The position numbers and the translations under genes were made by a program. The notes under the pieces are model-generated. The model was not told where the DNA came from, did no database searches, and saw nothing but the letters and a program-made list of their open reading frames with translations. Positions 48,614-64,000 of a stretch of DNA of 64,000 nucleotides are shown in pieces; the stretch's first letter is position 1, and each line of letters starts with the position of its first letter. The stretch is taken from NCBI RefSeq assembly GCF_004339675.1, contig NZ_SLVM01000017.1, positions 1-64,000 on the forward strand, given 5' to 3'. This DNA comes from Rhodovulum steppense (GTDB lineage Bacteria; Pseudomonadota; Alphaproteobacteria; Rhodobacterales; Rhodobacteraceae).

Positions 48614-49840
48614 ATGGAACGCAACTCCGACATCCTGATCGTGGGCGGCGGGCTGAACGGCCCTGCGCTGGCCCTTGCACTGGCCCAGGGCGGGCTGACC
48701 GTCACCGTGATCGACGCCCTGCCCGAGGCCGCCCGCGCCGAGGACCGTTTCGACGGGCGTGCCTATGCGCTGGCGCTGGCCTCGACCCGGCTGCTGCGCG
48801 CCATCGGGATCTGGGACAAGCTGCACAACCGCAGCCAGCCGATCCTTGAAATCGTCGCCTCCGACGGGCGCGCGGGCGAGGGGCCGGCGCCCTTCTTCCT
48901 CGATTTCCACCATGGCGAGATCGAGGAAGGCCCGATGGGCTACATGCTCGAAGACCGCTACCTGCGCCGCGCCTTCCTCGACGCGATGGCCGCCGATCCG
49001 CGGATCACGACGATCTCCGGCGAGACCGTGATCGCCCAGGCCCCCGACGCGACCGGCGTCACCGTGACGCTGGCCTCGGGCCGCACGCTGCGCGGGCTTG
49101 TCCTGGTCGGCTGCGACGGGCGGCGGTCGGGCACCGCGGAACGGGCGGGGATCCGGCGCACCGGCTGGGATTACGGCCAGACCGCGCTGGTCTGCGCCAT
49201 TGCGCATGAGCACCCCCATAACGGCGCCGCGCATCAGTTCTTCATGCCCTCCGGCCCCCTGGCGATCCTGCCTTTGCCCGGCAATCGCTGTTCCATCGTC
49301 TGGAGCGAGACCCATGCCAATGCCGCCGCGATCCAGGCGCTGGACGATGCGGGCTATCTGGCGGCGCTGCGCCCGCGCTTCGGCGATTTCCTGGGCGAGA
49401 TCGCGCTGGAGGGCGACCGCTTCGCCTATCCGCTGAACCTGACGCTGGCCAATGCCTTCGTCGCGCCGCGCATCGCGCTCTTGGGCGATGCCGCGCATGG
49501 TGTGCATCCGATCGCGGGGCAGGGGCTGAACCTCGGCCTGCGCGATGTGGGCGCGCTGGCGCAGGTGCTGGTCGAGGCGAAACGGCGCGGCGAGGAGATC
49601 GGCGCCATCGACGTGCTGGAGCGCTATCAGACCTGGCGGCGCTTCGACACGACCCTGATGGCGGTCGGAACCGATGCGGTGAACAAGCTGTTTTCCAACG
49701 ACAACCCGATCCTGCGGCTGGGCCGCGATCTTGGCATGGGCGCGGTCAACGCGCTGCCCGCCCTGCGCCGCCGCTTCATCCGCGAGGCCGCCGGGCTGAC
49801 CGGCGACCTGCCGCGATTGATGACCGGCCGCCCGCTCTAG
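48614..49840 (+). CDS. UbiH/UbiF-family FAD monooxygenase
   Basis: The 408-residue flavin hydroxylase shows the FAD fold DILIVGGGLNGPALALALAQGG, the CDGRRSGTAE motif, and the family signature ALLGDAAHGVHPIAGQGLNLGLRDVGAL. Members of this family hydroxylate the ubiquinone ring; which position cannot be told from sequence. An alternative start at 48578 would add 12 residues. It is divergent from the amidase. Confidence 0.9.
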   Translation: MERNSDILIVGGGLNGPALALALAQGGLTVTVIDALPEAARAEDRFDGRAYALALASTRLLRAIGIWDKLHNRSQPILEIVASDGRAGEGPAPFFLDFHHGEIEEGPMGYMLEDRYLRRAFLDAMAADPRITTISGETVIAQAPDATGVTVTLASGRTLRGLVLVGCDGRRSGTAERAGIRRTGWDYGQTALVCAIAHEHPHNGAAHQFFMPSGPLAILPLPGNRCSIVWSETHANAAAIQALDDAGYLAALRPRFGDFLGEIALEGDRFAYPLNLTLANAFVAPRIALLGDAAHGVHPIAGQGLNLGLRDVGALAQVLVEAKRRGEEIGAIDVLERYQTWRRFDTTLMAVGTDAVNKLFSNDNPILRLGRDLGMGAVNALPALRRRFIREAAGLTGDLPRLMTGRPL

Positions 49841-52145: not shown

Positions 52146-52955
52146 ATGGCGGACCTGCCGGGCATCGTGATCATGGGCGCATCGGGCCGGATGGGCCAGA
52201 TGCTGATCCACACCGTTCTGCAAAGCGACAAGGCCCGACTCGTCGGCTGCGTCGAGCGCTCCGGCCATCCCTGGATCGGCCGCGACATCGGCGAGGCGAT
52301 GGGCGGCCCGCATCTGGGCCTTGCCGTCACTGACGACGCCATCGGCACGATCGCCCAGGCCCGGGCCGTGATCGACTTCACCACGCCCGAGGCGACGGTC
52401 GCCACCGCGACCCTGACCGCCCAGGCCCGCGCCGTGCATGTGATCGGCACCACCGGATTCGGCCCCGAGCATCTGCACAAGATCAAGGCCGCCGCCCGCC
52501 ATGCCGTGATCGTGCGCGCCGGCAACATGAGCCTTGGCGTGAACCTGCTGGTGCAACTGACCCGCAAGGTCGCCGCCGCGCTGGATGCCGATTTCGACAT
52601 CGAGGTGGTCGAGGCGCATCACCGCCACAAGGTCGATGCCCCCTCGGGCACCGCGCTCATGCTGGGACAGGCCGCGGCCGAGGGGCGCGGCGTCGCGCTG
52701 TCCGAGGTCTCCGAACGCGGCCGCGACGGCATCACCGGCGAACGCGGCCGCGGCGCCATCGGCTTTTCCGCGATCCGGGGGGGCGACATCGTGGGCGAGC
52801 ATGACGTGATCTTCGCCGGGATGGGCGAACGGATCGTGCTGCGCCATGTCGCGACGGATCGCGCGATCTTCGCCCGCGGCGCGCTGCGCGCCGCGCTGTG
52901 GGGGCAGGACCGCAAGCCCGGCGAATACGACATGCTGGACGTTCTGGGTCTCTAG
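52146..52955 (+). CDS. dapB: 4-hydroxy-tetrahydrodipicolinate reductase
   Basis: DapB reduces the dipicolinate precursor with NAD(P)H in the lysine and diaminopimelate pathway. The 269-residue product has the dinucleotide motif [22 protein letters not shown], and the catalytic/substrate motif [18 protein letters not shown] 52146 has GGAGGG upstream; the longer frame from 52080 overlaps the promoter region. Confidence 0.95.
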
Positions 52956-52983
52956 ACGGCGCGTCCCGGGGGCCGGACCCCCG

Positions 52984-53025
52984 TTGACAGCGGCGCGCCA
53001 AACGGTCTTTCTGAACACACGTTCA
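52984..53025 (+). promoter_or_regulatory. Candidate promoter and operator of the TRAP transporter operon
   Basis: A perfect -35 box TTGACA (52984-52989) is followed, 22 bases later, by an inverted repeat TGAAC-ACAC-GTTCA (53012-53025) that overlaps the expected -10/start region. No good -10 hexamer is seen at 17-18 bases (TTTCTG is the best). The palindrome is well placed for a repressor. No regulator gene is adjacent upstream. Confidence 0.4.
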
Positions 53026-53118
53026 TTTCCAGAAGGCGGAACCCGGGGAGGGGGGAATGCTCGGCAGGAACAGCAACAGGCCCGGCCCGGCCGAACGGGG
53101 CCGTGCAGGGGGGCGGAC

Positions 53119-53619
53119 ATGCTGATCCGCGCCATCGACGGGCTGAACGAACTCGTGGGCCGCACGGTCGCGGTGCTCGCGCTCGGCTTCGCCGCCGTCA
53201 TCATCTACGACGTCTTCATGCGCTACGCGCTGAACAGCCCGACGCGCTGGGCCTTCGACGTCTCCAAGCAGATGTTCGGCTTCTACTTCATCCTGCTGGG
53301 CGGCTATGCGCTGCGCCATCAGAGCCATGTGCGCGTGGACCTGCTGACCGAACACATGCGCCCCGGCACACGGCGCTGGGTGGATATCGCGGGCTACCTG
53401 ATCTTCTTCTTCCCCTTCGCCTGGATCTTCTTCCGCCGCAGCTGGGATTTCGCCGCCCGGTCCTGGGCGCAGGGCGAAACCACCTATGGCGCGGTGCAAC
53501 TGCCGGTCTACCCGCTCAAGGCGGCGATGTGCGTGGCGGCGGGCCTGCTGCTGCTGCAAGGCATCTGCGAAGTGCTGAAACTGCTGTTCAACCGGACGGA
53601 ATCGCCCCATGGGACCTGA
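53119..53619 (+). CDS. TRAP transporter small permease (DctQ type)
   Basis: The 166-residue product has four predicted membrane helices and the DctQ features (RYALNSPTRWAFDVSKQMFGFYFILLGGYALRHQSHVRVDLL). It pairs with the large permease in an ion-driven uptake system. ATG 53119 was chosen from family length. It overlaps the next start by 11 bp. Confidence 0.9.
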   Translation: MLIRAIDGLNELVGRTVAVLALGFAAVIIYDVFMRYALNSPTRWAFDVSKQMFGFYFILLGGYALRHQSHVRVDLLTEHMRPGTRRWVDIAGYLIFFFPFAWIFFRRSWDFAARSWAQGETTYGAVQLPVYPLKAAMCVAAGLLLLQGICEVLKLLFNRTESPHGT

Positions 53620-54931
53620 GCTGATCGCCCTCCTGATGTTCGGCCTGCTGCTGCTGGGCCTGTTCATGGGCCACCCGCTGGCCTTCGTGCTGGGCGGCGC
53701 GGCGGTGATCGGGGCCTTTGCGGCGGGCAAGCCGATGGTGCTGGGGATCGTGGTCAACCGCGTCTTCGGCGACGTGCTGGACAATTACACCCTGATCGCC
53801 ATTCCGCTGTTCATCCTGATGGCGCGGTTCCTGTCGGATTCAGGCGTCACCGACAAGATGTTCGAGACATTGCGCCTGTTGCTGGCGGGGCTGCCGGGCG
53901 GGATGGCGCTGGCGGTGGTGTTCATCTCGATCCTGCTGGCGGCCACCACCGGCATCATCGGCGCCTCGATCACGGTGATGGGCTTCATGGCGCTGCGCCC
54001 GATGCTGCAATACGGCTACAGCCCGACCATGGCCTCGGGCCTGATCGCGGCCTCGGGCTGCCTGGGAATCCTGATCCCGCCCTCGATCATGCTGATCCTG
54101 ATGGCCAGCTATTCGCCGCTGTCGGTGGGCGAGCTGTTCGCGGGCTCCATGATCCCCGGCGTGCTGCTGGGCCTGCTCTATGCGGCCTGGGTCATGCTGG
54201 TGGCCTTCCTGCGCCCCGACATGGCGCCGCCCGTGCCCGCCGACGACAAGATCTCCCGCGGCGCGCTGTTCCGCATGCTCCTGCTCGAAGCGGTGCCGCC
54301 CCTGCTGCTGATCCTCGGCATCCTCGGCTCGCTGCTGGCGGGCATCGCCACCGCGACCGAAGCCTCGGCCATCGGTGTGTTCCTGGCGCTGATGATCGTC
54401 GTGGCGCGGCGCAGATTCGCGCTCAAGACCTTCTACAGCGCGCTGATCGAGACCGCCCGCACCTCGGCGATGATCCTGTTCATCGTCATCGGCGCCACCG
54501 CCTTTACCGGGGTCTTCAACATCACCGGCGGGCTGCGCGCCACGCAGGAGATCATCCGCGCCCTGGAAATGGAACCCTGGATGCTGATGACGATGCTGCT
54601 GTTCATCGTCTTCCTGCTGGGCGCCTTCCTCGACTGGACCGGGATCGTGCTTCTGTCCTTCCCGATCTTCCTGCCCATCGTGCAGGAGCTGAACATCGAC
54701 CTTCTGTGGTTCGTGGTGCTGATGGCGGTGGTGCTCCAGACCTCGTTCCTGACGCCGCCCTTCGGCTACGCGCTGTTCTATCTCAGGGCGATCGCGCCCC
54801 CCAGCGTCAGGACCGCGCAGATCATCGTGGGGGTGCTGCCCTTCATCGGGCTGATCCTGCTGATGTGCCTGGCCGTGGCGATGTTCCCGCAACTGGTGAC
54901 CTGGCTGCCCGGGCAGTTCTACGGACGCTGA
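53609..54931 (+). CDS. TRAP transporter large permease (DctM type)
   Basis: The 440-residue integral membrane protein has about 12 hydrophobic segments and the DctM signature regions (ATTGIIGASITVMGFMALRP, ASGCLGILIPPSIMLILMAS, FLTPPFGYALFYLRAIAP). It is the ion-coupled transport subunit. It sits between the DctQ and DctP genes of one operon. Confidence 0.93.
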   Translation: MGPELIALLMFGLLLLGLFMGHPLAFVLGGAAVIGAFAAGKPMVLGIVVNRVFGDVLDNYTLIAIPLFILMARFLSDSGVTDKMFETLRLLLAGLPGGMALAVVFISILLAATTGIIGASITVMGFMALRPMLQYGYSPTMASGLIAASGCLGILIPPSIMLILMASYSPLSVGELFAGSMIPGVLLGLLYAAWVMLVAFLRPDMAPPVPADDKISRGALFRMLLLEAVPPLLLILGILGSLLAGIATATEASAIGVFLALMIVVARRRFALKTFYSALIETARTSAMILFIVIGATAFTGVFNITGGLRATQEIIRALEMEPWMLMTMLLFIVFLLGAFLDWTGIVLLSFPIFLPIVQELNIDLLWFVVLMAVVLQTSFLTPPFGYALFYLRAIAPPSVRTAQIIVGVLPFIGLILLMCLAVAMFPQLVTWLPGQFYGR

Positions 54932-54958
54932 GACGACCAAAACCGGAGGAGAAAGACC

Positions 54959-56047
54959 ATGAAAACCAAGACCACCCTGTTCACGGGCGCCGCCCTTGCG
55001 GCAAGCCTGTCGGTGCCTGCCATGGCCGCCGAGACCTGGACCATGACCACCACCTGGCCCTCGTCGCTGGAACTGATCGAGATCGACCGCCATTTCGCGG
55101 ATCTTGCCAACAAGCTGACCGCGGGCGAGCTGACCATCGACTTCTACGAGGGCGGGTCGCTGGTGCCCGCGGGCGAGGTGTTCGGCGCGGTCGAAAGCAA
55201 CACGATCCAGGCCGGCGGCGACTGGCCGGGCTACTGGGCCGGGCGCGATGCCGCCTTCTCGCCGCTGGCCACCACCGCCAGCCTGTTCAACGCGGTGGAC
55301 TATGTGAACTGGATCCTCGAATGGGGCGGCGCGGCGCTTTATGACGAGATCTACGGCAATTACGGCATGGTCTACCTGCCCTATGGCGTCACCAACAACG
55401 AATCGGGCTTCCGCACCAATTCGCCGATCCGCACGCTCGAAGACCTTCAGGGCAAGCGGCTGCGGCTCTCGGGCCTCGAACAGGGCAGGATCCTCGAACG
55501 CCTCGGCGGCAGCCAGGTGTCCATGGCGGGCGGCGAGATCTACCAGGCCCTCGAACGCGGCGTGATCGACGGCGCGGAATTCTCCACCCCGAACGTGGAC
55601 TGGTCGGGCGGCTTCCAGCAGGTGACGCAATACTGGGCCACGCCCGGCTGGCACCAGTCGGCCTCGGTCTTCGGGGTGATGATCAACAAATCCGCCTGGG
55701 ACGCCCTCGCCCCCGAGACGCAGGAAAAGCTGCGCGTGGCGGCCAATGCGACGCTGTTGTGGTCGCTTGCCTTCACCGAGCGCCGCGCGACCGAAGCCTA
55801 TGCCCAGTTCGACGAGGCGGTGGAGATCACCCGCTATGACGACGAGACGCTGGCCCGCGTGCAGGAAATCGCCAACGAGGTGATCGTGGAAACCGCCTGC
55901 GCCAACCCGAACTCGGCCAAGGTCTATCTCAGCCAGCTCGAATACCTGGCCGATTACGCCAAATGGCGCGACGCCTCGGCGCCCTTCAACCTCGGCCGCA
56001 CGCCGAACGGCCCGGATATCGAGGCGATTCGCGCCTGCGCCAACTGA
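54959..56047 (+). CDS. TRAP transporter substrate-binding protein (DctP/TakP-like)
   Basis: The 362-residue product has a signal peptide (cleavage near AMAAE) and the DctP fold. The stretches GGEIYQALERGVIDGAEFS and the following PGWHQ resemble the TakP branch that binds 2-oxo acids, but the ligand is not determined by this. It is the third gene of the operon, with GGAGGAG upstream of its ATG, and is followed by a strong terminator. Confidence 0.88.
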   Translation: MKTKTTLFTGAALAASLSVPAMAAETWTMTTTWPSSLELIEIDRHFADLANKLTAGELTIDFYEGGSLVPAGEVFGAVESNTIQAGGDWPGYWAGRDAAFSPLATTASLFNAVDYVNWILEWGGAALYDEIYGNYGMVYLPYGVTNNESGFRTNSPIRTLEDLQGKRLRLSGLEQGRILERLGGSQVSMAGGEIYQALERGVIDGAEFSTPNVDWSGGFQQVTQYWATPGWHQSASVFGVMINKSAWDALAPETQEKLRVAANATLLWSLAFTERRATEAYAQFDEAVEITRYDDETLARVQEIANEVIVETACANPNSAKVYLSQLEYLADYAKWRDASAPFNLGRTPNGPDIEAIRACAN

Positions 56048-56067
56048 CCGAACCCACTCGCGAAACG

Positions 56068-56096
56068 GGGGTCCGCAGCGATGCGGGCCCCTTTTT
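56068..56096 (+). terminator. Intrinsic terminator after the TRAP operon
   Basis: GGGGTCCGCA and TGCGGGCCCC (one T-G wobble) form a 10-bp stem with a GCGA loop, followed by five Ts. It separates the transporter from the qhpR-like gene. Confidence 0.85.
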
Positions 56097-56208
56097 CGTG
56101 CAGTCGCGCCCGGATCGCGCGCCGGACCTGCCCTTGGGTTAACAAATTCGTAGGCCGCCACGGCCCCCTGCGGTTAACGTCTTCGTGAACGCCCGACAGG
56201 TCAGGCCC

Positions 56209-57174
56209 ATGGACGCGTCCTGGATACTCAGCCGCCCCTATACCGCGCTGGTGCCCCCCGCCTGCGCCGACACCCCGCCCGCCATGGCGCTGGCCGAGTT
56301 CGTCTCGGGGCTCGAACGGATGCGCGCCGACAGTTCCGATCCGCTGGTCTCCTGGCGTCAGGGCCTGTCGCTTGCCTTTGCCGATCTCGGCCCGCTGGGC
56401 GAGGCGGTGGCCCGCGCCACCACCCTTGGCGCCGCGCTGCGCTGTCTGGCGCAGGGCTTTCCCGCGCTGCAATCCGGCACAAGTGCCCGGTTCGAGGTCG
56501 ATGGCGATTGCGCCCGCTTCACCTACCGCGTGCTCGACTGCCGGATCTGGCCGCGCCGGGCCGATTCCGAACTGACGCTGGGCGTCGTCGCCCGCATCGC
56601 CGGGCATTTCGGCGCGCCCCCCACCGCCCTCAGCGACATCGCCTTCGAACACGCGCCCTGCGCCCGCACCGCCCCCCTTGCCGCCGCCCTGCGCCGCCCG
56701 CCCCGCATGGCTGCGCCCGAAAACGCCATCGCCTTTCCCGTCCGTATGCTCGACCGCCGCGCCCCCACCCCCGACGACTCCTTCCCCGAGGCGCTGCGCA
56801 TGCTCGACCGCACCATCGCCGAGCATCGCCGCTCCGAACGGCTGTCCTCGCGGGTGCGCTTCGCCATCTTCGACCGGATCGGCCATGCGCCCGTAGATCA
56901 GGACGCCATCGCCCGCCATCTGGGCCTGTCGCGCCGCTCCCTGCGCCGCCATCTCGATGCCGAGGGCACCAGCTTTGCCGACCTTCTTGCCGAATGCCGC
57001 CGCGCCTGCGGCCACGCCATGCTGACCCGCACCGCGCTGCCGCTCAGCGAGATCGCGCTCGCGCTGGGCTATTCAGACCAGACCGCGTTTTCCCGCGCGT
57101 TTTCCCGCTGGTTCGGCGAATCGCCGCGCGAATTGCGCCGCTCGGGCGGGCGCGAGGAAAGCGTGATCCGCTGA
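56209..57174 (+). CDS. qhpR: AraC-family regulator, likely QhpR
   Basis: The 321-residue product has an N-terminal ligand/dimer region of the AraC-binding type and a C-terminal double helix-turn-helix: ISRHL-like IARHLGLSRRSLRRHLDAEGTSF and LSEIALALGYSDQTAFSRAFSRWFGESPRELR. In Paracoccus an AraC regulator of this kind switches on the qhp genes in response to primary amines. ATG 56209 has a better-placed AGG-rich site than GTG 56185. Its 3' end runs antisense into the 3' end of qhpF for about 106 bp. The qhp role is inferred from position. Confidence 0.75.
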   Translation: MDASWILSRPYTALVPPACADTPPAMALAEFVSGLERMRADSSDPLVSWRQGLSLAFADLGPLGEAVARATTLGAALRCLAQGFPALQSGTSARFEVDGDCARFTYRVLDCRIWPRRADSELTLGVVARIAGHFGAPPTALSDIAFEHAPCARTAPLAAALRRPPRMAAPENAIAFPVRMLDRRAPTPDDSFPEALRMLDRTIAEHRRSERLSSRVRFAIFDRIGHAPVDQDAIARHLGLSRRSLRRHLDAEGTSFADLLAECRRACGHAMLTRTALPLSEIALALGYSDQTAFSRAFSRWFGESPRELRRSGGREESVIR

Positions 57175-58814
57175 TCGAACGGCCCCTCGCGCGCCGGTCC
57201 CGCATGGGCGATGAAAATCCGCGTGCGGTCGGCGTAATGCGCGTCCAGCGCCGCCAGAATCCGCCCCGCCGAGGCCGCATCGACCTCCGACAGGCTCTCA
57301 TCCAGGATCAGCACCCGGAACGGCAGCAACAGCGCGCGGGCCAGCGCGATCCGCTGCCGTTCGCCGCCTGACAGGTTCGCCCCCGTCTCGGTCAGCATCA
57401 GGTCCAGCCCCGCCCCCTGCGCCCGCACCCAATCGGCCAGGTCGGCCTGTTCCAGCACCTGCCACAGCCGGGCATCCGACGCCGCCGGATCGGCCAGCCG
57501 CAGGTTGTCGCCCAGGCTCATCGCCAACAGCGTCCCGCGCTGCGGCACCAGCGCCACCGCCCGGCGCAGCGCCACGGGGTCAAGCGTGCGCACATCCACC
57601 CCGTCCAGCGTGACCCGCGCGCCCGGCGCCGGGGCCGCCAGCCGCAGCGCCAGGTGCATCAGGCTGGATTTCCCGGCCCCCGAGGCCCCGTCGATCAGCA
57701 CCCTTGCCCCCGCCGGGATCGTCGCCGTAACCGGCGCGTGATCCGCCATTGCCGCCCGCGCCACCTCGAAGCCCAGCACGGCCCCCGGCGGCAGCGGCCT
57801 GCCCGGCGCCTCGGTCGCCTCGGCATCCATCAGGTCCGCCAGACGCCCCGCCGACACAAGCGCCTGCGCCTGCGCGTGATACAGCCCCAGCAGGTTGCGC
57901 AGCGGCCCGGTCAGCATCCCGATATAGGCCAGGAACGCGATCAGCGCGCCGATCTGCCAGTCGCCCCGCACCACCCACAGCCCGCCGATCAGCAGCACCG
58001 ACAGCCGCACCCCCGCCGCGATCACCTGCGGCACCGCGCCCACCAGTTCCAGCCAGCGCCGCTGGCGCTCCAGCGCCGCGATCTGGCCAGTCTGCAACGG
58101 CTCCAGCGCGCCCGCCCGCGCCTCCCCCGCCCCCAGCGCGCGCAGCGTGGGCAGGCTCGACAGGCTCTCGATCACGAAGCTCGACACCGCGCCGCGCATC
58201 TCGCGCACATCCTCGGCCCGCGCGGTCGTGCGCCCCCGCGCCCAGGCCAGAAAGGCCAGCTCCAGCGGCGCCGCCAGGATCGGGATCAGCGCCAGCCGCC
58301 AGTCCAGCACCACCAGCATCACGCCCCCGCCCAGCAGCCGCAGGATCGAGCCGAAGGCCGCCAGCAGCCCGTCAAAGGCGAAACGCTGGATCTCGGCCGT
58401 GTCCCCGTCGATCCGCGCCGTCATCTCGCCCACGGGCTTGGGCGGCGCCAGCGGATCGCGCAACAGGCTGGCCCGCATCGCGCGCCCGCGCAGATCGGCC
58501 AGCATCCGCGCCGAGAACCGCAGATGCAGCAGCGCATTGACCACGCCCATCCCCAGCGCCGCCAGCCCGACGCCAAAGGCCGCCAGCGCCCAGGTCCAGA
58601 CCGCCTGCGCATCGCGCGCCACCAGCCCCTCGTCGATGAACTGCTTGGTCAGCCACGGCGTCGCCAGCCCCAGCAGAACCGCCAGCAGCGACACCGCCAG
58701 CACCAGCGCGATGCCGCCCGAGGCCCGCGCGATCACCGGCCCCAGCCAGCCCGCCGCGCCCGGCCCGAAGAAGACCCGCGCCGCCCCCCGGCCGAAGCGT
58801 GCCGCCCCGTTCAT
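57069..58814 (-). CDS. qhpF: ABC transporter of QHNDH maturation (QhpF)
   Basis: The 581-residue fused half-transporter has six predicted membrane helices, then an ATPase with Walker A GASGAGKSS, signature LSGGERQR, and Walker B VLILDESLSEVD. In the Paracoccus system QhpF takes the processed gamma subunit across the membrane. After the H-loop (FIAHAGPAREG) the chain does not keep the normal ABC C-terminus; about 40 residues (RITLSSRPPERRNSRGDSPN and on) are read antisense to qhpR. The ATG overlaps the qhpE stop by four bases. Confidence 0.85.
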   Translation of the reverse strand: MNGAARFGRGAARVFFGPGAAGWLGPVIARASGGIALVLAVSLLAVLLGLATPWLTKQFIDEGLVARDAQAVWTWALAAFGVGLAALGMGVVNALLHLRFSARMLADLRGRAMRASLLRDPLAPPKPVGEMTARIDGDTAEIQRFAFDGLLAAFGSILRLLGGGVMLVVLDWRLALIPILAAPLELAFLAWARGRTTARAEDVREMRGAVSSFVIESLSSLPTLRALGAGEARAGALEPLQTGQIAALERQRRWLELVGAVPQVIAAGVRLSVLLIGGLWVVRGDWQIGALIAFLAYIGMLTGPLRNLLGLYHAQAQALVSAGRLADLMDAEATEAPGRPLPPGAVLGFEVARAAMADHAPVTATIPAGARVLIDGASGAGKSSLMHLALRLAAPAPGARVTLDGVDVRTLDPVALRRAVALVPQRGTLLAMSLGDNLRLADPAASDARLWQVLEQADLADWVRAQGAGLDLMLTETGANLSGGERQRIALARALLLPFRVLILDESLSEVDAASAGRILAALDAHYADRTRIFIAHAGPAREGPFDQRITLSSRPPERRNSRGDSPNQRENARENAVWSE

Positions 58815-59479
58815 GCGCAGCCCCGGCATTCGGGCCCGTGAAACCGCGCCGCGCCCGCCAGCGCGTCCCGCGCGGCCGCGCCATCGGCAAACCGCGCCCC
58901 GGCCGCGATCCGCGCCGCCAGATGCCCCGCAACCCGCGCCGCGGCAAGGCTCGCGCCGCCCTGTCCCGTCCCGCCCTGTTCGGGCGATCCGCACCAGGCC
59001 CCGATCACGCCGCCCTCAAGTGCCGAAAGCCCGTCCCAGTCGCAACGCGCATCGCCCGTTGCCGCGATCACGCCGGGATAGGCCGCCGGATAGCACGGCC
59101 CCCCCCGCGCAGGCGCCGCCGCGACCACGATCCGCCCCGCCGCCACCGCCGCCAGCGCCGCGCGGCTGAGCGGCACCCGGTCGGCCGCCAGCCCCAGGCT
59201 CAGGCAGATCACATCCGCCTTCCGCCCCGCCAGCCAGTCCAGCGCGCTCGCCACCTGGATCGCCGTCGTTACCGGGCGGTCCTGAAACACCTGCGCATGA
59301 ACGATCCGCGCATCGGGCAGCGCACGCCGGATCACCTCGGCCACCGCCGTTCCATGGCCCAGCCGGTCAGGCCGCGCCGCGACCCAGGTGCCATCCGGCA
59401 GGAACAGCCGCCCCCCCGCCAGATCGGCCTCGGGGCCGCCGCTGTCGATCACGCCGACAAGAGGGGGGCGGCCCGTCAC
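58811..59479 (-). CDS. qhpE: Subtilisin-like protease of QHNDH maturation (QhpE)
   Basis: The 222-residue serine protease has the triad Asp12 (VIDSGG), His42 (LGHGTAV) and Ser177 (GGASLAAARVAG), the short subtilase layout, and no signal peptide, so it acts in the cytoplasm. In Paracoccus QhpE removes the leader peptide from the cross-linked gamma precursor. It starts at a GTG three bases behind the qhpB stop and overlaps qhpF by four bases. Confidence 0.88.
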   Translation of the reverse strand: MTGRPPLVGVIDSGGPEADLAGGRLFLPDGTWVAARPDRLGHGTAVAEVIRRALPDARIVHAQVFQDRPVTTAIQVASALDWLAGRKADVICLSLGLAADRVPLSRAALAAVAAGRIVVAAAPARGGPCYPAAYPGVIAATGDARCDWDGLSALEGGVIGAWCGSPEQGGTGQGGASLAAARVAGHLAARIAAGARFADGAAARDALAGAARFHGPECRGCA

Positions 59480-59482
59480 CGC

Positions 59483-60559
59483 CTAGTCGGCGCGCGTGAA
59501 CAGCCGCACCGAGGCCAGCGACATCGAATGCCCGTCCGGCAGGTCGATCTGGCCTTTCTTCTCCAGCGTCTCGGCATCATAGACCCCGATATTGCCCAGC
59601 GTGCCGCCGATGAAGATCGTGCTGCCATCGCTTGAGACATTCACCGAGTAATAGCTGTGCGGCAGGTTCACCCGCTTGATCGGCGCGCGCGTCTCCAGAT
59701 CGAAACTGGCCAACTGGTTGTAGACGCCGAAAATCCGCTGCTTCGCCGGATCGGCCACGGTCGAGAAATAGAAGATGTCGGTCGCCTCCGCGTCCTTCAT
59801 CACCATCTCGCCGGTCTCCAGATCCAGCGTCAGCAGCCCGGTGCGATAGGCCTCCGGGTCTTCGGGGTCGCCATCCTCGCGAAAGGTGTAGAAGGGCGTG
59901 GTCACCATCCCCGCCACCTCGAATTGCGACCAGGCATCCAGAACGTCGGGCTGGACATATTCGCCCTTGCCCCAGCCATGGATCGGCAATTCATCCACCT
60001 TCTGCCCGGTCGCGCCGTCGAAGACATGCATCTCGCGGCCCATCCCGTAGATCCGGCTGCCATCCTTCGAATAGGCGATCACCGTCACCTGCCGCGGCGC
60101 CTCGGCCCGGGCCTTCAGCACGCCGGTTGCCGCGTCATACAGCGACAGCCGCGTGGGCCGCACCTCGAAATGGTTCTTGAAAAGCCCCACCGGGCTTTCA
60201 TAGACCGCCAGCGTCGCGCCGTCGGGCGACAGGTCCATCCCGAACAGCGCCTTCACCCGCTCCTGCTCGGTGCCCAGGATCAGGCGCTGCACTTCCTCGC
60301 CGCTTTCCAGGTCGATCTCGACGATCTCCTCGTTCTGCGCGACGATCACGAAGGCGCGGCGCCCATCCGCGCTGACCACGGGCAGGCTGGGCAGCGGCGC
60401 GGCCATGTCGATGGTGATGACCTTGTCCACCGCCATCGCCTCGGTATCGACGATCACCAGCCGGTCGGGACGGGTCGGCGCGATCAGGTAGTCGCGGGCC
60501 AGCGCGGGCGCGGCGGCAGCCAGCAGGGCAGGGGCCAGCAGGGCAGTCAGCGTCTTCAT
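59483..60559 (-). CDS. qhpB: Quinohemoprotein amine dehydrogenase beta subunit
   Basis: The 358-residue product has a signal peptide (cleavage near PALARD) and a seven-bladed beta-propeller made of repeated YVTN-like units (for example LVIVDTEAMAVDKVITIDM and VSSDGSTIFIGGTLGNIGVYD). The beta subunit packs against gamma and alpha in the periplasm. The ATG at 60559 lies five bases behind the qhpC stop, with GAGG close upstream. Confidence 0.9.
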   Translation of the reverse strand: MKTLTALLAPALLAAAAPALARDYLIAPTRPDRLVIVDTEAMAVDKVITIDMAAPLPSLPVVSADGRRAFVIVAQNEEIVEIDLESGEEVQRLILGTEQERVKALFGMDLSPDGATLAVYESPVGLFKNHFEVRPTRLSLYDAATGVLKARAEAPRQVTVIAYSKDGSRIYGMGREMHVFDGATGQKVDELPIHGWGKGEYVQPDVLDAWSQFEVAGMVTTPFYTFREDGDPEDPEAYRTGLLTLDLETGEMVMKDAEATDIFYFSTVADPAKQRIFGVYNQLASFDLETRAPIKRVNLPHSYYSVNVSSDGSTIFIGGTLGNIGVYDAETLEKKGQIDLPDGHSMSLASVRLFTRAD

Positions 60560-60564
60560 CCTCG

Positions 60565-60912
60565 TCACCCTTTCAGCCGGGGAAAGACCGATTGCAACTG
60601 GCGCCAGTCCGCTTCCGAGGCGGGCGCGTTCTCGGTCCAGTTCGGATAGGTGGTCATCGTGTCGGGCACCTGCGCGGGCCACCAGCAGGGATCGGCGCAG
60701 CCGTAAAGATCGGCCTCCATCGGCTGGCACAGGTTGGCGACACCGCCAAAGGCGTCGATCTCCCAGCCCGGATCGAACGAGGTGGTGCAGCCCACCAGCG
60801 CGTTCATGGCCAGCACTTCCTCGGCGCTGCCCTCTGCGGGCGCGGCGGCTTCGGCCTCAAGGGCCTCGTCCATCGCCTTGGCCCGGGCATTGGCGGGGGT
60901 CAGGTGTTTCAT
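60565..60912 (-). CDS. qhpC: Quinohemoprotein amine dehydrogenase gamma subunit precursor
   Basis: The 115-residue precursor holds the cofactor CTQ. Taking M36 as mature residue 1, all known cross-linking partners are present: Cys7-Glu16, Cys27-Asp33 and Cys41-Asp49 thioethers, and Cys37-Trp43 forming the cysteine tryptophylquinone, within the motif [10 protein letters not shown]. The first 35 residues form an Ala/Glu-rich leader without a Sec signal, as expected for a precursor matured in the cytoplasm. The ATG overlaps the qhpD stop (ATGA). The mature part is about 80 residues. Confidence 0.95.
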
Positions 60913-62348
60913 TGGGCTCTCCTCGGCTGAAGATGGCGACGGAAGAAATCGGGATTGGCCTGCATGATGCGGGTATAGGCGGCGATCCCGAAATCGACCC
61001 AGTCCCGCATCAGGTCGCAATAGTGATAGACCGGCGCGAACGGATCGCCCTGCCGCGCATAGGATTCGTGATAGCATCCGCCCGCGCAGATCGACCGGAT
61101 CCGGCAGGTCCGGCAGCCATAGCCGCTGCGATCCTGCGCCCCCTCGATGAAGCCTGCCAGCCGCGGCACGTCGATGCCGGTCTCGACATTGCCATAGGTC
61201 GGCTGGTCTGACCCGACGAAGCGGTGGCACAGATGCAGATCGCCCGCCTTGTCGACGGCCAGCATCCCCAGCCCGGCCCCGCAGGGCACCGCCTTTTTCG
61301 TGCCCTGCGCGATGTCCGTCAGCAACTGGTGCATGTTCGAGAAGCCGATATTCTCGCCCCGTATCGCGGCCTCGACATAGCGCCGCCCGAGCGTCTTCAT
61401 GTCCTCGAACACCTGCCCCAGCGCAGCACCTTCCAGGTTGAAGACCGATACCGGGCCGGATGTCGCCGGGCCGAATCCCACCTCGGCAAAGCCCAGATCG
61501 CCGCGCAGATGGTCATGGATCGCCAGCACATCGGTCACCCCGCGCGTCAGCGTCACCCGCGCGCCCACGGGACGCGAGCGATACCGCCCCAGCAGCATCC
61601 GCACATTCCGCGCCACCGCGTCATAGGTGCCCCGCCCGCCCACGTTCCGCCGGTTCACGTCATGCAGCGCCTTGGGGCCGTCCATCGACACGGTCAGCCC
61701 GAAGCGATGCGCATCCAGCCAGTCCACCAGCGGCTCGGACAGCAGCGTGCCATTCGTGGTCAGCGAGAAATCGACCGTCTTGCCCAGCTCCGCCACCCGC
61801 GCCTCGGCATGGTCGACCACCTGCCGGATCAGCGCGATATTGGTCAGCGGCTCGCCCCCGAAGAAGACGACATTGACCCGGTCCCGCGCCGATGCCTGCC
61901 GCAGCAGCAATTCGAACGCCGCCACCGCGGTCTGGAAAGTCATCTTCTCGCCCTTGGCGGGGGTCGTCAGATCCTCCTTGTAGCAATAGGTGCAGGCCAG
62001 GTTGCAGCCCGTGTTGACGTTCAGAACGATCGTCGACAGCGGCACATCCTCGACCCGGGCAATCCGGATCGGCGCGGCCGGCGTGGCCGCATCGCGCAGG
62101 ATGTCGAGGGCCACGAAACTGGCGACGCAATCGGCCAGCGCGCCGGGCGCATGCCGCCCACCCAGTTCCGCGCGCAGAGCCGCGGCATCCGCCACACCCG
62201 CCCGCGCGAACAGGTCGAACACATCACGCGCCACCGCGTCCATTTCATACAGCCCGGTCGAGGGCACATGCATCAGCATCGCGCGCCCGTCCACCTCGAC
62301 CCGGTGGGCATTCTCGGGGATGAAGGCCAGCATTCCCATCGCGCTCAC
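60909..62348 (-). CDS. qhpD: Radical SAM thioether-forming enzyme QhpD
   Basis: The 479-residue product has an N-terminal PqqD-like recognition region (about 5-85), the radical SAM motif CNLACTYC at 115-122, the GGEPL motif, and a C-terminal SPASM domain with further Cys (CGAG...[23 protein letters not shown]). In Paracoccus QhpD makes the three Cys-to-Asp/Glu thioether cross-links in QhpC. The GTG at 62348 overlaps the qhpA stop by four bases; an ATG at 62339 is the alternative. Confidence 0.93.
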
Positions 62349-63895
62349 CGGATCGGCGGATCGACGAAACGCTGGACGGTGGCGTAAAGCTGCGCGCGCC
62401 CCTCCAGCACCTCGCCCGCCTGTTCAAGCCGGGCAACCACCCACAGATTGCCCGCATTGTTCGTCATCATCGGCCGTTCCGGGTTCGGCCCCGCATCGCC
62501 CGGCGTGAACCGGCCCGTGCCGTCGATCACGCCCGCAAAGCGCGCATCCTCCATCGCCGCGGCCACCTCGTCGAAATTCTCGGTGCTCCAGTCGGCGGGG
62601 AAATGGCCCACAAGGATGTCGTCCTCGGTGCCCGGCTCGCCATCGGGACCGTTCAGGTAGCCCAGCACCTCGAATTGCGCGGGGACCTTGGCAATCGGCC
62701 CGTCATTGCCGCCCACGCGCGAGATCGTGACCTCTGGCACCACCGCGATCCGGTCCAGCCGGTCATACAGAACCAGCGGCGCGGCCAGATCCCCCAGTCC
62801 AAGCGTGACAGGCCCCACCGCCGCCTCCGCCCCGGCGGTCACGCGCAGCACGACCTGCGTCGTGCTTTCCGAAACCACCTCGGCACTGACGCCTTCGGGC
62901 AGCACCGGCGCGCCCGACAGCCCCACGCCGGTCAGCGTGACCTCGGCCGCCTCGCCCAGCCGCAGATGGCCGGGGCTGATGCCCAGGATACGCGGCGCGG
63001 CATCCTCGCGCGCGGCCAGCATCCGCGCTCCGATCACGTCGCTTTCGGCATCGAACCAGCGCCCCGCCAGCGCCCCATCCGCGCCCAGCGCCATGACCTG
63101 CCGGATCTCGGTCTCGCCATCCGACAGCGTCGCGCGCCACTCGCCCGCGCCATAGACCAGCCCCTGCCCGTCGAAATGCGCGTGGCTGCCATCGGCAAAG
63201 CCCATATCCAGATGCACCTCGTAGCCCGCGCCCTCGGCCATCACATGCATCGTCCCGGCATAATCGCCCCGCCCCGGCATCCGCCCGGCCACACTCCAGG
63301 CCCCCGACAGATCGGCGGCCAAGGGCGCCGGGGCGTCGCCCAGCCCGTAAGTCCCGGCCAGGAAATCCAGCACCTCGCTCATCGCAAGGCCCCACCAGTC
63401 GCGGTCACGCGCCAGCGCCTGATATTCCAGCGTCGGATACTGCCCCAGATGGAAATGGATCATATGCGCCCAATCCTCGCGCGTGCGCCGTTGCAGCGCG
63501 ACCCGGGCAAAGGAATGGCAGCGTGCGCACATCTCGGCCAGGTCCTGACTCGGCGCCAGATCCACCGAAACGGGTTCCTGCTCCAGGATATAGCGCCAGC
63601 CCTCGGTCTCCGCGACCGCCAGCCCGCGCGTGTCGGCCAGATGGCGCACCATCGCCGCGCGCTCCTCGCCCGACAGCCGGACCCCGTGATTGCGCATCAT
63701 CCGCACCAGCGTCATGTCCCAGCCTTCGGGCGTGCGGCGGCCATCGTCGATTCGCGGCAGGCTGCCATCGGCGCGCGGCGCGTGACAGGTGGTGCAGACG
63801 CGGTCCAGGATCTCCTGCGGTTCCATCGCAAGGGCAGGCAGCGCCAGCGCCAGCGCGGCGCAGGTCGACCAAAGGGCGGGGGCTGTTCGGCTCAT
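62345..63895 (-). CDS. qhpA: Quinohemoprotein amine dehydrogenase alpha subunit (diheme cytochrome c)
   Basis: The 516-residue product has a Sec signal (cleavage near PALAM) and two heme c motifs, CTTCH (34-38) and CARCH (123-127), followed by Ig-like and barrel domains (GISPGHLRLGEAAEVTLTGVGL). The alpha subunit takes electrons from the CTQ of gamma and passes them to periplasmic acceptors. The start at 63895 gives the signal peptide MSRTAPALW; ATG 63904 is three codons earlier and equally open. It is the first gene of the operon; its promoter is only partly in the window. Confidence 0.92.
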   Translation of the reverse strand: MSRTAPALWSTCAALALALPALAMEPQEILDRVCTTCHAPRADGSLPRIDDGRRTPEGWDMTLVRMMRNHGVRLSGEERAAMVRHLADTRGLAVAETEGWRYILEQEPVSVDLAPSQDLAEMCARCHSFARVALQRRTREDWAHMIHFHLGQYPTLEYQALARDRDWWGLAMSEVLDFLAGTYGLGDAPAPLAADLSGAWSVAGRMPGRGDYAGTMHVMAEGAGYEVHLDMGFADGSHAHFDGQGLVYGAGEWRATLSDGETEIRQVMALGADGALAGRWFDAESDVIGARMLAAREDAAPRILGISPGHLRLGEAAEVTLTGVGLSGAPVLPEGVSAEVVSESTTQVVLRVTAGAEAAVGPVTLGLGDLAAPLVLYDRLDRIAVVPEVTISRVGGNDGPIAKVPAQFEVLGYLNGPDGEPGTEDDILVGHFPADWSTENFDEVAAAMEDARFAGVIDGTGRFTPGDAGPNPERPMMTNNAGNLWVVARLEQAGEVLEGRAQLYATVQRFVDPPIR

Positions 63896-63941
63896 CGGTG
63901 GCATGTCCCTGTTGCTTTGTCGGTGTCGCGCTCTTGGTGTC

Positions 63942-63960
63942 GCGCGGCGCTTTGCCGCGC
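63942..63960 (-). repeat. Small hairpin upstream of qhpA
   Basis: GCGCGGC (63942-63948) and GCCGCGC (63954-63960) make a 7-bp stem with a 5-base loop, about 40 bases before the qhpA start. It may be in the untranslated leader or be an operator. The window ends before any clear -35 box can be placed. Confidence 0.35.
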
Positions 63961-64000
63961 CGATCAAATCTTTGCCAAGCTCCGTCCGCATTTCTTGACA

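Follow-up and report, generated by a model that had tools for sequence, protein, structure and literature searches.

The described qhp systems and the present locus

The closest described relatives of the locus studied here are the qhp loci of Paracoccus (structures 1JJU and 1PBY; chromosomal and plasmid loci) and the qhp/pea loci of Pseudomonas (structure 1JMX; QhpG structure 7CTQ). In the available sections of PMC7876137, the gene set is given as qhpABCDEFGR and the system is counted in more than 1300 species; the same sections report that disruption of qhpG in P. denitrificans yields a quinone-less gamma subunit and that qhpG is essential for the CTQ cofactor. For qhpF, the relevant literature comprises that paper and PMC8172795, going by the accessible portions of both, and among the matches listed for qhpR there was no paper on this system.

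On the strength of its gene content, the locus at hand almost certainly encodes a quinohemoprotein amine dehydrogenase (QhpA, QhpB and QhpC) along with the maturation proteins of its gamma subunit, with QhpR as the likely activator (Table 1); its amine-oxidising activity is predicted from the same source, as is growth on primary amines such as n-butylamine. It shares with the Paracoccus loci the genes A to G and R, their order and the cross-link residues, and the alpha, beta and gamma subunits of the Paracoccus structures align over nearly their whole length to the proteins of the window (the whole stretch of Rhodovulum steppense DNA that was analysed, 64,000 nucleotides at the start of contig C17). 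It differs from Paracoccus in having a QhpC leader of 35 rather than 28 residues, a single operator arm in place of a pair, TRAP transporter genes instead of an aldehyde dehydrogenase gene beside qhpR, and a histidine at position 315 of QhpG. The Pseudomonas loci encode the same proteins in other gene orders, and no convergent qhpR was detected in them with the window's QhpR as the query. Once qhpG is included, the locus is a standard Paracoccus-type qhp cluster, specifying an enzyme that derives its cofactor from amino acids of its own chain.

Table 1. Features of the qhp locus; positions are those of the window unless given for contig C17, and bit scores are followed by the model's cut-off where one applies
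Feature	Position	Strand	Evidence
qhpR, AraC-type regulator, convergent with qhpF	56209..57174	+	NF049968 363 bits (cut-off 250)
qhpF/qhpR convergent coding overlap, 106 bp	57069..57174	both strands	third codon positions facing
qhpF, ABC exporter	57069..58814	-	PF00664, PF00005 over cut-off
qhpE, subtilisin-like leader protease	58811..59479	-	NF049966 224 bits (cut-off 165)
qhpB, beta subunit	59483..60559	-	TIGR03907 344 bits (cut-off 223); 1JJU chain B 453 bits
qhpC, gamma-subunit precursor	60565..60912	-	NF037958 160 bits (cut-off 50); 1JJU chain C 147 bits
QhpC leader, 35 residues	60808-60912	-	alignment to 1JJU chain C
qhpD, radical SAM/SPASM thioether-forming maturase	60909..62348	-	TIGR03906 756 bits (cut-off 453)
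qhpA, alpha subunit	62345..63904	-	TIGR03908 634 bits (cut-off 274); 1JJU chain A 647 bits
qhpA-qhpG divergent promoter region, window part of 212 bp	63905..64000		gap between genes
Candidate QhpR operator TTGACATTTCCGGACA	C17:63995-64010, crosses window edge		conservation
qhpG, tryptophan dihydroxylase	C17:64117-65409, outside window	+	NF049967 402 bits (cut-off 240); 7CTQ 149 bits

Gene content and family assignments

The original prediction of six minus-strand genes (57069-63904) and a regulator facing them (56209-57174) stands in its coordinates and junctions. All qhp frames are open; qhpA starts with the ATG at 63904, A and D overlap in GTGA (62348-62345), D and C in ATGA (60912-60909) and E and F in ATGA (58814-58811), and gaps of 5 and 3 bases separate C from B and B from E, respectively. 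The regulator gene starts with the ATG at 56209, a GTG at 56185 being a possible earlier start.

In a profile scan of the seven window proteins and the adjoining TRAP binding protein against NCBIfam and Pfam, the family roles predicted for QhpA, QhpD, QhpC, QhpB, QhpE and QhpR were borne out, with all six exceeding curated NCBIfam equivalog cut-offs. The profile search of QhpA-F that had been proposed as a check is thereby positive for A, D, C, B and E and equivocal for QhpF, which matched ABC exporter models of NCBIfam below their cut-offs and no qhp-specific model among the best 25 of 151 families, while its two Pfam ABC exporter domains are over cut-off. The best segments of this protein are 53-64% identical to the QhpF of nine Paracoccus and Neomegalonema loci, a resemblance which, together with its place in the operon, identifies it as the probable QhpF.

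Residue-level features agree with these assignments. By eye, QhpA displays two CxxCH haem motifs and a start that resembles a signal peptide, and QhpD has the CxxxCxxC motif and the SPASM cysteines, with ten cysteines kept in at least 81/82 aligned proteins (C115, C119, C122 and C374 in 82/82 and six more in 81/82). In QhpE, H42 and S177 are found in 58/58 aligned proteins and D12 in all 49 that reach that position; we take these to be the Asp-His-Ser triad of the subtilase family. The genome as a whole holds a complete set of qhpA-G and qhpR. A chance match is excluded by PF08992, which has a single match in this genome (4.1e-43) and none in 14/14 control genomes.

QhpG beyond the window edge

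The claim that the operon is complete does not hold for the window: qhpG is absent from it and sits past its edge, divergent from qhpA over a 212-bp gap (its frame counted from ATG). The earlier reader overlooked both this gene and the 106-base convergent overlap of qhpF and qhpR (see below). A search of the genome with NF049967 gave 12 matches, of which one, at C17:64138-65364, is over the cut-off; weak matches below the cut-off also occur in 14/14 control genomes. The in-window match at 48632-49540 scores 49 bits, and the gene that contains it encodes a general FAD-binding monooxygenase domain.

QhpG can be aligned with 7CTQ over residues 7-409. The protein retains four of the five residues mutated in the available part of PMC7876137, namely E43, R48, R71 and the W185/W187 pair; on a manual matching of the numbering, these correspond to E42, R47, R70 and W183 in the Pseudomonas enzyme. 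The fifth published residue, Arg314, corresponds to His315 in this QhpG. This column has Arg in 40/49 and His in 6/49 aligned proteins (three short ones dropped), and in the same part of that paper R314A is among the mutants reported to have lost almost all activity and/or to have a reduced affinity.

QhpC cross-links and leader

The mature part of QhpC aligns without gaps from its first residue to 1JJU chain C and 1JMX chain G; precursor residue 36 corresponds to residue 1 of 1JJU chain C, such that the mature part begins MNALVGC. By alignment to 1JJU, all eight cross-link and cofactor residues (Cys7, Glu16, Cys27, Asp33, Cys37, Cys41, Trp43 and Asp49) are at their published positions, and they are kept here and in 96/96 other loci, a count that includes repeats (L091-L093 repeat L094-L096, and other repeats remain). 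The thioether pairs, Cys to Asp/Glu, are presumably 7/16, 27/33 and 41/49. Cys37 and Trp43 are named as the CTQ residues in the available text of PMC7876137.

Leader lengths were counted backwards from Cys7 with starts picked by rule, and odd singletons may be start errors. Across the 96 loci, the leader has 28 residues in 82 and 26 in five, while a length of 35 is seen in four rows (two places) and 32 in two rows (one place); lengths of 27, 31 and 33 occur in one locus apiece. The long form has its extra residues after the conserved MKHLTPAN start and ahead of the EEVLA that precedes the cut.

A candidate operator between qhpA and qhpG

An alignment of nine qhpA-qhpG gaps uncovered a conserved TTGACATTTCCGG. 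All 13 gaps scanned contain this arm with 0-2 mismatches. Nine of them also contain a second, inverted arm (0-2 mismatches), and the remaining four, which lack it, are the gaps of the window's genus. Shuffling the window's gap produced a second arm with up to 3 mismatches in 0.9% of cases. In the genome, the 16-base site is matched once at fewer than two mismatches, beside qhpA. An operator-like site with 2 mismatches at C25:13450 overlaps the end of a frame, which we take to be an ectoine synthase, and was set aside as chance.

We scanned 18 loci (330,577 bases) for pairs of the inverted 13-base motif, allowing 36-40 bases between arms and at most 3 mismatches per arm. This gave 17 pairs in 13/18 loci and none with the reversed pattern, and a comparison with gene positions placed all 17 either in the qhpA-qhpG gap or no more than about 400 bp upstream of qhpR. 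Several of the scanned loci had defined the motif, so their pairs are not independent; the definition drew neither on pairs upstream of qhpR nor on any from the five plasmids. The five loci without a pair are the four of the window's genus (L010, L094, L095 and L096) and L014, whose arms are 40 bases apart from start to start; in L020 and L021, the qhpA-qhpG arms are 63 bases apart and the sole pairs caught are those upstream of qhpR. The same scan of 70 other qhp loci found no pair. We infer a candidate tie of this operator to QhpR: the AraC-type regulator would most likely activate the divergent qhpA and qhpG promoters via the TTGACATTTCCGG site.

Distribution, gene order and neighbours

The arrangement with qhpG and qhpR on one strand and A, D, C, B, E and F between them on the other is found in 12/86 loci examined, a total that includes short first pieces (L091-L093) from relatives in the window's genus. 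Nine of these 12 are Paracoccus or Neomegalonema loci, out of ten in all; the exception, L019, is a contig of 4 kb, and L020 and L021 share a contig. The other three belong to relatives within the genus of the window. With this genome included, the gamma subunit is present in 4/16 genomes of the genus and 9/295 sampled genomes of the family; therefore, the locus is patchy. Plasmid records that already name the genes number 19, of which 10 are from Paracoccus and nine from Leisingera.

Next to qhpR in the window are the TRAP transporter genes dctQ, dctM and dctP (52846-56047). An aldehyde dehydrogenase gene adjoins qhpR in 4/5 annotated Paracoccus plasmid regions and is absent from beside qhpR within the window.

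Two further loci of the survey deserve mention. Pseudomonas morbosilactucae has two distinct qhp loci (L015 and L062), a Paracoccus-like one with a QhpD 73% identical to that of the window and a Pseudomonas-type one with 55% identity, which suggests lateral transfer. L038, a qhp contig binned as Klebsiella pneumoniae, and L039, from a Gammaproteobacteria MAG, have the same QhpC, and the former label is perhaps a binning error.

Alternative readings of the locus

The better of two competing accounts is that this is a genuine qhp locus, but one that in this lineage is silent or has little activity, as the channel residue Arg314 of QhpG has become His, one operator arm has been lost and an aldehyde dehydrogenase gene is not adjacent. 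His315, the absence of the operator pair in 4/4 loci of the genus and the occurrence of the gamma subunit in just 4/16 of its genomes would all fit this account. We nonetheless regard it as improbable, since the frames are open, the catalytic residues that were checked are retained, 6/49 proteins have His at that position of QhpG and the whole locus is kept in the same order in three relatives.

The original prediction had named as grounds for refutation that an unrelated RiPP family fits QhpC or QhpD better; such a fit was looked for and not found: QH_gamma was the sole family matched by QhpC in the profile scan, and for QhpD the runner-up to its own TIGR03906 (756 bits) was PapB at 254 bits, with no other family over its cut-off among the remaining 24 shown of 67 matches. 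A RiPP cluster that secretes a modified peptide with another role, and is qhp-like just in its radical SAM enzyme and protease, is a very unlikely alternative; QhpD does match ranthipeptide and nif11-type maturase models under their cut-offs, and the locus has the protease and exporter that are typical of RiPP clusters, but QhpC matches QH_gamma alone, QhpA and QhpB are both over cut-off and qhpG adjoins. An amine dehydrogenase locus of the Paracoccus type is the reading that we retain.

The tail-to-tail overlap of qhpF and qhpR

The overlap codes for the tail of the exporter and a DNA-binding helix of the regulator on opposite strands. It spans 94-106 bp in 13/13 convergent loci measured (94 in three, 97 in five and 106 in five), these being the window, L099 and eleven others, with L021 (broken qhpF) and L101 (ends like L011) left out, and it occurs in Paracoccaceae and Neomegalonemataceae, two families of Rhodobacterales. 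Public annotation gives a 97-base overlap in 4/5 annotated Paracoccus plasmid regions, and the fifth has a short AraC frame that is free of overlap. The qhpR annotation in L135 (P. sanguinis plasmid pPspOM122) is a short ligand-binding-domain frame ending before qhpF, and the regulator of this plasmid may be broken. Elsewhere, L098 has qhpR downstream of qhpF on the same strand and a QhpF that lacks the tail, L100, L102, L103 and L104 have no QhpF match within 1.5 kb either side of qhpR, and the Pseudomonas-type QhpF ends examined are devoid of an antisense tail.

In all 13 overlaps, the qhpF stop (TAG in five, TGA in eight) lies opposite a Gly-Tyr-Ser-Asp-Gln/His stretch of qhpR. The two reading frames oppose each other at their third codon positions, so the AraC helix largely determines the QhpF tail. 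A substitution test gave no evidence of independent selection on the tail: columns with a qhpR-silent third-position change that alters QhpF were not significantly rarer in the overlap than in the rest of qhpR (Fisher p 0.33), standing against silent ones at 4 to 17 in the overlap and 78 to 171 in the rest, one column possibly counted in both classes; differences between sequence pairs that alter QhpF likewise number 64/305 in the overlap and 440/1810 in the rest of qhpR. Antisense stops are found in 0/30 overlap columns and 55/295 control columns (13 sequences), a count to which we give no weight, since openness is what defines the overlap. Backward reading of a conserved AraC helix is a sufficient explanation of the QhpF tail.

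A scan of 56000-57400 for sigma-70 promoters found nothing, and one for terminators found two weak sites (shuffles 0.6 +/- 1.0), none of them in the overlap or qhpR; the single weak site on the operon strand is at 56162-56149, past qhpR. Both stops lie inside the overlap, which leaves a terminator no room between the two genes. On a speculative and rather unlikely reading, operon transcripts may therefore continue into qhpR in antisense and dampen expression of the regulator, as a built-in brake. In the available part of PMC2478687, 54/178 convergent overlaps over 60 bp are considered possibly real, most of them conserved just in very close species. Either the overlap or an operator may already have been published in reference 11 of PMC7876137, a study of the P. 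denitrificans genes.

Implications

The qhp system itself is already known, and the present genome is another host of the ordinary type. The locus nevertheless yields material for work on the family: the 35-residue leader is a natural length variant that could be used in studies of QhpC maturation, while the candidate QhpR operator, as defined by conservation, and the long convergent overlap, here conserved past close relatives, are testable by-products.
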